Positions 5,242-7,393 of a stretch of 64,000 nucleotides of DNA are shown here, one piece after another. The stretch is taken from the NCBI GenBank assembly GCA_029561345.1, contig JAKQJC010000034.1, positions 1-64,000 on the forward strand, given 5' to 3'. The translations under genes were made by a program, and so were the position numbers. Position 1 is the first letter of the stretch. Every line of letters begins with the position of its first letter. The stretch is from Chloroflexota bacterium (lineage in GTDB: Bacteria; Chloroflexota; Anaerolineae; Anaerolineales; Anaerolineaceae). Under the pieces are notes generated by a model, which was not told the origin of the DNA, did not search any database, and saw only the letters and a list, made by a program, of their open reading frames with translations.

Positions 5242-6162
5242 ATGGCCACAGAAAAAGCGATCACGGCTGATCGTTCAAATTTGACCCGCTTTGCCTGGCT
5301 TTCCATTGGCGCAGCGGTCACCACCATTACGTTAAAAATCACAGCCTATTTGCTGACCGGTTCGATTGGCCTGCTGTCAGACGCGATTGAATCGGGCGTC
5401 AACCTGATTGGCGCGATCATGGCACTGGGCATGTTGAGCGTGGCCGCCCGTCCGGCGGATGAAGAACATGCTTTTGGCCATAACAAGGCCGAATATTTTT
5501 CCAGCATTGTGGAAGGCATCCTCATCCTGATCGCTGCCATCAGCATCATCTGGACCTCAGTAGGCCGCCTGATTAACCCGCAGCCGCTGGAATCATTGGG
5601 CATAGGCCTGCTGGTTTCGGTGGGCGCTTCGGTGTTGAACCTGGTGGTGGGGCAAATTCTGATTCGCACGGGCAAGAAAAACAATTCCATTACCCTGGAA
5701 GCCGATGGGCATCACCTGATGACCGATGTGTGGACATCGGGCGCCGTGATCTTGGGGGTGGGGCTGGTGGCGCTGACCGGCTGGCTGCCGCTGGATTCGC
5801 TGGTGGCCATTTGCGCGGCGCTCAACATCATCTACACCGGCGTCAACCTGGTGCGGCGCTCGGTGGCCGGGATGATGGATGTGAGCCTGCCGGACGGCGA
5901 AATGGAAGCCATCGAGAAGGTGATGACCGGCTACCGCGAAAAGGGCGCGCAGTTCCATTCCTTGCGCACCCGCCAGGCGGCCTCAATGCGCTTCATCGCC
6001 GTGCATATGCTGGTGCCGGGCAAATGGAATGTGCACGATGCGCATCACCTGGCCGAGAAGTTTGAGAAGGATATCGAAAAGGCTTTAGGCGAAGTTTCCG
6101 TGATCACCCACCTGGAACCCATCGAGGATGAAATTTCAACCGCCCATTTGCTGGAAAAATGA
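5242..6162 (+). CDS. Cation diffusion facilitator (first of two)
   Basis: This 306-residue membrane transporter of the CDF family exports divalent metal ions in exchange for protons. Six helices span about residues 15-200, followed by a C-terminal ferredoxin-like cytoplasmic domain (about 205-300). Aligned by eye to YiiP, the helix-2 metal site reads E-x3-N (IESGVN) instead of D-x3-D, while helix 5 keeps H-x3-D (HLMTD). HNKAEYF is the usual motif before helix 3. The ribosome site AAAGGA lies before ATG 5242. It follows dtd by 27 bases and ends at a terminator. The metal cannot be assigned from sequence. Confidence 0.9.
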   Translation: MATEKAITADRSNLTRFAWLSIGAAVTTITLKITAYLLTGSIGLLSDAIESGVNLIGAIMALGMLSVAARPADEEHAFGHNKAEYFSSIVEGILILIAAISIIWTSVGRLINPQPLESLGIGLLVSVGASVLNLVVGQILIRTGKKNNSITLEADGHHLMTDVWTSGAVILGVGLVALTGWLPLDSLVAICAALNIIYTGVNLVRRSVAGMMDVSLPDGEMEAIEKVMTGYREKGAQFHSLRTRQAASMRFIAVHMLVPGKWNVHDAHHLAEKFEKDIEKALGEVSVITHLEPIEDEISTAHLLEK

Positions 6163-6192
6163 TTTTTTGTTGTCAACACTTGAAAGTATTTT

Positions 6193-6223
6193 ATCAGCCT
6201 GTTTTATTCAGGCTGATTTTTTT
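6193..6223 (+). terminator. Intrinsic terminator after the first CDF gene
   Basis: ATCAGCCTG (6193-6201) pairs with CAGGCTGAT (6209-6217) across a TTTTATT loop, followed by a run of T to 6223. Confidence 0.88.
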
Positions 6224-6332
6224 GCTGAATTTCCATAACAGCTCAGACGGTCAAAAAATGACACAGCAGAAAAATCGCTATTTTTCTTGAAAAATTGTCC
6301 GCGATTATCTGGATATATGACACGGTCTCGTG

Positions 6333-6338
6333 TATAAT
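6333..6338 (+). promoter_or_regulatory. -10 box of the second CDF gene
   Basis: A consensus TATAAT lies in an otherwise gene-free stretch (6163-6496). The -35 is weak (CTGGAT, about 18 bases upstream). Transcription from here would give a leader of about 150 bases before ATG 6497. Confidence 0.5.
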
Positions 6339-6344
6339 AGGCAC

Positions 6345-6481
6345 ATTCTACTCCTAGCCACCTGATGCGGCGCACTCAGCCGGTGGTTATCAGCAGTGAA
6401 GCAATCTCATGCCTCAAAGGTGCAGACAGCAAAAAAGCTGTTGGTTCACCCTTTGCAGGCTGTTTTATTTAAACAGCCCGT
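6345..6481 (+). ncRNA. Structured leader RNA, candidate riboswitch of the second CDF gene
   Basis: Several dyads stack here. CCACC (6360-6364) with GGTGG (6382-6386) encloses GGC/GCC. A long hairpin joins 6411-6422 (GCCTCAAAGGTG) to 6447-6460 (CAC, CTTTG, AGGC), with ACAGC/GCTGT (6426-6430/6437-6441) at its tip. A second hairpin, GGCTGTTT (6458-6465) with AAACAGCC (6471-6478), shares bases 6458-6460 with the first, so the two cannot form fully together. Mutually exclusive stems just before a metal-exporter gene suggest a metal-sensing switch. I could not match it to NiCo, yybP-ykoY or M-box consensus features. Confidence 0.45.
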
Positions 6482-6496
6482 TTGAAGAGAGGTACC

Positions 6497-7393
6497 ATGA
6501 GATATGTGCGTTTGTATTCGCCTAACCCTGAACAGGCGAAATTATTCCGCAAGGCGTTAGTGATCACATTTACCGGCAACCTGATTCTGGCTGCCAGTAA
6601 GATGGCAGTGGCTTTGACCGCGCAATCGGCAGCCATCATGTCGGATGGGCTGATGTCTTCATCAGATCTGTTTTATTCCGCCATGATGGTGCTGGGTTTC
6701 TGGCTTTCGATGCAGCCGCCGGATATTTCGCATCCCCAGGGGCACAGCCGGTATGAACCCCTGATCGGGATGATGATCATGATTGCCATGGCCTTTGCCG
6801 CCTACCAGGCGGTGGTGCAGTCGTTTGAACGCTTCCTGAATCCGCAGGTGATTGACCCGATTTCTTCCCTGGTGCTGGCGTTTGGCGCGGTGACCAAGCT
6901 GGGTATGTATTTCCTGATCAAGAGGATCGCTGACCGCACCCGCAACCCCACCCTGCGCACCACGGCCATTGATAATCTTTCTGATGTGTTCACCACATCG
7001 GGGGCTTTTATTGGCGCCCTGGGATCGAATTTTATTCACCCGCTCACGGACCCGATTGCCGGTACGCTGGTGGGGCTGGTCATTGCGCGGAACGCGTTCA
7101 ATGCCGGGCGAGAAAACCTCAATTTCATTGTTGGCGCGGGCGCCGACCAGGAAACCACAGAAAAAATGGTGGCCATGGTGCGTGAAGTGCCGGATGTGCT
7201 GGATATTCACCTGTTCTGCACGGAATACAGCGGCACCAAACTGGTGGTGGATATGCACATCAACTGCGATCCCAACCTGCCGCTTTCAAGGGTGCATGAT
7301 GTGGAATCTGAAATCATCCATAAGTTAAAGTTGCTGGATGAAGTGGACCGGGTTTATGTGCATGTGGAGCCCATTGGGCTGGATAATGATTGA
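6497..7393 (+). CDS. Cation diffusion facilitator (second of two)
   Basis: This is a 298-residue CDF-family divalent metal exporter with six membrane helices and a C-terminal cytoplasmic domain (about residues 205-295, ending in VHVEPIGLD). By eye, the helix-2 site reads M-x3-D (MSSSD) and helix 5 reads D-x3-D (DNLSD), so no His is present in the transport site. That resembles manganese or iron CDF members more than zinc ones, an inference only. ATG 6497 has AGAGAGG at 6486-6492, which is a better start than the upstream in-frame TTG at 6482. It lies behind a structured leader and differs clearly from the CDF gene upstream. Confidence 0.88.
   Translation: MRYVRLYSPNPEQAKLFRKALVITFTGNLILAASKMAVALTAQSAAIMSDGLMSSSDLFYSAMMVLGFWLSMQPPDISHPQGHSRYEPLIGMMIMIAMAFAAYQAVVQSFERFLNPQVIDPISSLVLAFGAVTKLGMYFLIKRIADRTRNPTLRTTAIDNLSDVFTTSGAFIGALGSNFIHPLTDPIAGTLVGLVIARNAFNAGRENLNFIVGAGADQETTEKMVAMVREVPDVLDIHLFCTEYSGTKLVVDMHINCDPNLPLSRVHDVESEIIHKLKLLDEVDRVYVHVEPIGLDND

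Follow-up and report, generated by a model that had tools for sequence, protein, structure and literature searches.

The question raised by this locus is whether the leader in front of a divalent-metal exporter gene, located in the window (the whole analysed stretch of 64,000 nucleotides), works as a previously unrecognised RNA switch. As outlined in Table 1, a promoter-like site precedes the leader, and transcription would be expected to start near position 6345; in the aligned leaders of related genomes an AT-rich TATGATAAAAT-like element lies at about -23 to -12 relative to the P1 loop. Since the leader has this promoter-like site of its own and the gene upstream ends in a terminator, it should be transcribed independently. 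The gene directly upstream (5242-6162, +) encodes a second CDF exporter with the A-site EN-HD, and its own terminator means that two different divalent-metal exporters are arranged in tandem. EN-HD is given as the clade 6 signature, associated with Mn/Fe and also with Zn/Cd (PMC5703985).

Table 1 Features of the exporter leader and its surroundings in the window.
Feature	Position	Strand	Remark
Terminator hairpin of the upstream gene	6193-6217	+	Separates the two transcripts
Promoter-like site TGGATA-17-TATAAT	6310-6338	+	10 of 12 consensus positions
P1 hairpin	6355-6389	+	-13.4 kcal/mol
P1 outer stem TAGCCACC/GGTGGTTA	6355-6362 with 6382-6389	+	
P1 inner stem GGC/GCC	6369-6371 with 6379-6381	+	
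P1 conserved loop GGCGCACTCA	6369-6378 (family register)	+	Family form GGC-GGAGCACnCA-GCC
GCAC	6372-6375	+	Proposed 5' strand of the pseudoknot
Variable linker	6390-6411	+	Mostly little or no information above background across leaders
Conserved block 2, CCTCAAAGGTGCA	6412-6424	+	5' arm of the terminator
GTGC within block 2	6420-6423	+	Proposed 3' strand of the pseudoknot
Hairpin 1	6411-6460	+	Intrinsic (Rho-independent) terminator hairpin; -21.5 kcal/mol
Terminator U-tract TGTTTTATTT	6461-6470	+	
Hairpin 2	6458-6478	+	-10.1 kcal/mol; overlaps the U-tract and the final three bases of hairpin 1
Ribosome-binding site GAGAGG	6487-6492	+	Ahead of the exporter ATG at 6497
CDF-family divalent cation exporter	6497-7393	+	TIGR01297, Pfam Cation_efflux

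The first-pass annotation had described two strong hairpins with three bases in common, a third structured region ahead of them and, directly behind, the ribosome site of a divalent-metal exporter. All of these elements were recovered: the shared bases are GGC (6458-6460), the preceding structured region is P1, and the leader ends before the ribosome-binding site of the CDF gene. By its fold energy the leader is only modestly better than chance, with z = -2.26 for 6345-6497 (4 of 200 shuffled sequences were equally good) and z = -1.62 for 6345-6462 (12 of 200). What raises it above chance is its conservation, as detected by the leave-one-out model described below, and not fold energy alone.

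Alignment of the leaders from the Anaerolineaceae revealed a conserved core consisting of P1 with the loop GGAGCACnCA and, 17-31 nt later, block 2 (CCUCAAAGGUGCA), the inner P1 stem GGC/GCC being part of the consensus. Between and around the two blocks the information per position is close to background, the -10 region excepted. This two-block RNA is present in 26 of 147 Anaerolineaceae genomes and in 7 of 40 genera (g1, g4, g20, g23, g34, g39 and g40), and all 26 leaders lie directly 5' of one orthologous CDF exporter gene. A conserved leader RNA dedicated to one exporter in this family is real and well supported. The first-pass proposal had hinged on conservation beyond very close strains, which the covariance search revealed across these genera.

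Orthologues of the exporter occur in 84 of the 147 genomes (E up to 1e-60). Upstream regions were read in 56 of these and contained both blocks in 23 cases; a 24th candidate, L063 in genome G131, was doubtful and was excluded from all alignments and counts. A covariance model built from 23 sequences, with only P1 given as structure (R1), yielded 25 matches of at least 36 bits in the 147 genomes, plus one in G123 at 25.6 bits, which was retained despite its score because it precedes the exporter in a leader truncated by the end of the contig; in G009 the exporter was assigned from the sequence at the contig end. R1 was also run on two samples of 400 genomes each, one drawn from the phylum and one from the order, and found nothing outside the family above 29 bits. 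Of the matches of 29 bits or less away from the exporter locus, those inspected (including L198) looked coding-like by eye or lacked one of the blocks and were treated as chance. Furthermore, a strict pattern search in 84,980 species genomes gave 19 matches, and 18 of them represent motif leaders from Chloroflexota, either MAGs or strains. The coding sequence of this exporter follows in 17 of the 19, and in L079 only its first codons are present on the contig, which ends there. One match labelled Bacteroidetes (L081) falls in apparent coding sequence and was discarded as a chance hit. Named carriers are Leptolinea tardivitalis YMTK-2, Leptolinea sp. HRD-7 and Bellilinea caldifistulae GOMI-1, Leptolinea belonging to the Anaerolineaceae (Chloroflexota).

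For the window itself, a leave-one-out covariance model (R2), built without the window sequence, located the leader at 6363-6426 with 29.3 bits (E = 2.6e-8 in the search of the window). Across the whole genome the leader was again the best place (E = 1.7e-6), with the next match at 20.7 bits. The window genome is the sole member of its genus among the genomes compared, and a search of the 147 family genomes for plain DNA similarity to the leader returned, besides the leader itself, only short chance-like matches. When presence of the motif (25 rows) is mapped onto a tree of 81 exporters, 9 changes are required, compared to a mean of 21.5 for shuffled labels (none of 500 shuffles was as low), indicating that the motif was inherited with several losses or gains. 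The exporter can evidently be run without it, as 59 of the 84 exporter-bearing genomes do not carry the motif. Upstream of the exporter in G131, L063 has the appearance of a decayed copy, with a P1-like hairpin and AAAGGTGG and without a GCAC loop; this genome is nested among the motif carriers on the exporter tree.

Between its promoter-like site and the start codon the window leader contains a stable hairpin followed by a U-tract, as expected for a Rho-independent attenuator. An intrinsic terminator is well supported for the motif leaders in general: a hairpin that starts with block 2, has a stability of -15 kcal/mol or better and is followed by a T-rich tail was found in 24 of 26 leaders compared to 43 of 1040 controls with shuffled downstream sequence. 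The two exceptions are L046, where a hairpin AAAGGTGCGG/CCGCACCTTT is recognisable by eye, and L068, whose weak T-tail passes if the tail requirement is relaxed. RNAalifold recovers the terminator stem only, and not P1.

The ten-base 5' arm within block 2, CTCAAAGGTG, was invariant in all 25 leaders compared (25 terminators), although its pairing partners vary. Opposite its T the partner is A in 11 terminators, G in 10 and missing in 4; opposite its second G it is C in 16, T in 7 and missing in 2. An arm that is needed for pairing only would be free to covary, and block 2 must consequently have a second role. Leader-peptide attenuation, in which the position of a ribosome on a short upstream ORF decides on termination, is disfavoured by the same invariance, since the ten consecutive bases show no wobble pattern. 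The linkers of L019 and L032 do contain an ATG with a preceding GGAG (MKDQTLKGA...), but in 8 of the 26 leaders no frame open into block 2 begins with ATG, GTG or TTG, and the remaining ones differ in frame and have no common frame or start codon, which makes this mechanism very improbable.

The segments GCAC and GTGC form an inverted repeat, and the conserved blocks could also be read as DNA sites, with a metalloregulator acting on an operator at the promoter in combination with a constitutive terminator. In four related genomes without the motif, the promoter of this gene carries an inverted repeat that resembles an operator. Against this reading, which we disfavour and consider improbable, the spacing of the two blocks varies between 17 and 31 nt, block 2 forms a terminator arm, and the -10 region is the only part 5' of P1 that clearly exceeds the background. 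The mutual exclusion of hairpins 1 and 2, a further claim of the first-pass annotation, holds true for the window leader but is not what is conserved. Neither conserved block includes hairpin 2, which could form only after the U-tract has been transcribed and was therefore taken as incidental. The idea of a switch between the two hairpins finds no support: hairpin 1 is the terminator, and the conserved alternative would place its 5' arm against the P1 loop.

The P1 loop is an obvious and plausible candidate for the partner of block 2 in its second role (GCAC:GUGC). Four Watson-Crick pairs between loop and block 2 can be formed in 26 of 26 leaders, compared to 18.6% of shuffled loops reaching at least four. 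Divergent loops keep the complementarity by re-registering (CACC:GGUG); it is kept in a shifted register in three leaders with the loop AGGTTCACCA and as AGCA:TGCT in L048. Within one register of the motif-leader alignment the pseudoknot columns show no double-sided change, and covariation consequently does not prove the pseudoknot. For P1, 74.5% of the alignment cells are paired and three of the six pairs show double-sided changes. The count of 3 covarying pairs does not exceed that in shuffles (mean 3.4, with 445 of 500 reaching 3). Considering the whole structure, 80.3% of the cells are paired, compared to 24-31% when the structure is slid along the alignment. The 14 double-sided cells of the whole structure exceed the 7.6 found in shuffles (2 of 500), with a slide by +2 columns also giving 14 and with the kinship of the 26 related leaders inflating such covariation counts.

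The conserved structured region of the 5' leader overlaps the expression platform, which is one of the general characteristics of a riboswitch; the other is that a metabolite or ion binds directly and specifically and thereby alters expression. We regard it as moderately probable that the leader is a clade-restricted, cis-acting transcription attenuator of the riboswitch type, operating as an ON switch with the exported divalent metal as the probable effector; direct binding of the effector, the direction of the switch and the identity of the metal are what we infer from the leader and its gene. RNA polymerase would start just 5' of P1. By default, block 2 (CCUCAAAGGUGCA) would pair with the downstream CCUUUGGGG-like arm to form the terminator, leaving the exporter gene untranscribed. 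With the effector bound, GCAC of the P1 loop would keep GUGC of block 2 in a pseudoknot, whereby the 5' arm would be withheld from the terminator and read-through into the exporter gene would occur. The pump would then probably be made only under an excess of a metal such as manganese. The data speak for a conserved RNA and a terminator, not for a ligand, and the same attenuator could be controlled by an RNA-binding regulator protein that grips P1 and block 2 and thereby blocks the terminator. Within one bacterial family the motif is tied to just one gene, a range that is common for protein-bound leaders. We consider such a protein effector fairly unlikely.

For the riboswitch-type attenuator, the exported divalent metal would be the most likely effector, with Mn2+ as the first candidate, and the responsiveness to metal that the first-pass annotation had suggested is plausible. 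The nearest solved relatives of the exporter are YiiP/FieF. Of 98 aligned rows, 95 have ND-DD as the A-site quartet, and the remaining three are the window gene itself; as some genes occur twice in these rows, the duplicate-free set comprises 81 exporters, of which the window gene has MD-DD and the other 80 have ND-DD. ND-DD is described as the clade-1 signature and linked to Mn selectivity, while A-site composition predicts selectivity poorly overall (PMC5703985). This manganese signature is found in every orthologue examined except the window's own. The NCBIfam MntE model NF052621, with a curated cut-off of 500 bits, gave 72.8 bits for the window exporter and 83.9-126.6 bits for three orthologues. 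Since A-site composition is in general a poor guide to selectivity and the MntE scores are far below the cut-off, Mn2+ has to be regarded as the leading and not as the established effector. The Met in place of Asn in the metal site of the window exporter may possibly reflect a changed metal preference. In the tree of 81 exporters the window exporter forms a long branch (1.03 compared to a median of 0.14).

The leader had been described as unrecognised and as unlike the known NiCo and Mn switches, and comparison with Rfam 15 corroborated both statements. No match was obtained in the window at gathering thresholds, and at E up to 10 the region 6150-6560 gave nothing relevant, neither RF00080 (yybP-ykoY) nor NiCo; a scan of the L047 leader at E up to 5 matched neither of the two. 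The NiCo riboswitch (RF02683) gave no covariance-model match in whole-Rfam scans, and the motif leader matches neither the yybP-ykoY core GGGGAGUAG nor the corresponding covariance model. Furthermore, 19 exporter loci without the motif were scanned at the gathering threshold and contained no known riboswitch in its place; a 20th scanned locus, L019, bears the motif and was not counted. A literature search, with preprints and most subscription journals outside its scope, found no paper on a zinc riboswitch or on such a motif in Anaerolineae. An attenuator RNA that is uncatalogued to date and conserved across several Anaerolineaceae genera is real.

Sub-threshold matches to yybP-ykoY were obtained in 13 of the 147 family genomes, with 23-39 bits at a cut-off of 45. 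Eight of these 13 leaders (L146-L153, 30-39 bits) were inspected, and all eight contain the core GGGGAGTAG; routine annotation would miss them, as they score below the Rfam cut-off. They precede MntP-like genes (L146, L147 and L152) or P-type ATPase genes (L148-L151 and L153), assignments for which Pfam was run on one gene of each kind. RNA-based control of Mn export thus seems to be in use in the Anaerolineaceae. Four of the eight genomes (G007, G009, G012 and G014) also carry the new motif; having a yybP-ykoY-like Mn switch at other genes, they may have no need for a further sensor of Mn, and the new motif could equally serve another metal. The low scores of these members and the similar gene context (Mn/Co/Ni exporters) might suggest that the motif is itself a distant, unrecognised relative of yybP-ykoY or NiCo. 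This is extremely improbable given the failure of both families to match at the permissive thresholds, the absence of the core GGGGAGTAG from the motif leaders and the absence of any RF00080 match from the window genome.

We tentatively propose, as a possibility somewhat short of probable, that the riboswitch-type attenuator constitutes a new class of transition-metal riboswitch, unrelated to yybP-ykoY and NiCo, in which a minimal hairpin-loop pseudoknot senses Mn2+ (or, e.g., Zn2+ or Fe2+) and acts by antitermination. Like the yybP-ykoY riboswitch, which is ON with metal, it is located in the 5' leader of cation exporters and controls a terminator, and both occur in the same bacterial family; in contrast to yybP-ykoY, with which it has no core in common, its conserved region is far smaller, its two-block plan is pseudoknot-like and a different gene is served. 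The NiCo (czcD) riboswitch is also found in the leader of CDF exporters, but its four-way junction was not seen in the folds of the window leader. In its proposed architecture the motif resembles the small H-type pseudoknot riboswitches preQ1-I, SAM-II and fluoride, in which a loop pairs with a downstream strand of the expression platform; here, too, a hairpin loop and a downstream strand shared with the expression platform would be combined. It differs from them in the lack of any Rfam sequence match, the linker of 17-31 nt and the metal-exporter context.

Few RNA classes that sense transition metals are known. If the proposal is true, two unrelated RNA devices would guard metal export in one genome, the new switch sometimes sharing the cell with a yybP-ykoY switch that controls another exporter. 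As the leader is compact, has one dedicated exporter and is carried by named strains, the question is directly testable. A review from 2022 considers Zn2+ a strong candidate for the ligand of an undiscovered class and describes the specificities of metal switches as unsettled (PMC10043782).

In four genomes of genus g4 (L008, L012, L015 and L028; at about 2380-2520, -) this exporter is preceded not by the motif but by a different conserved leader. Here an inverted repeat CCGCTTGTGG...CCACAGCGG extends across the promoter and is followed by a terminator CCATTCAC...TTGAATGG-TTTTTC, an arrangement that looks like an operator plus an attenuator.
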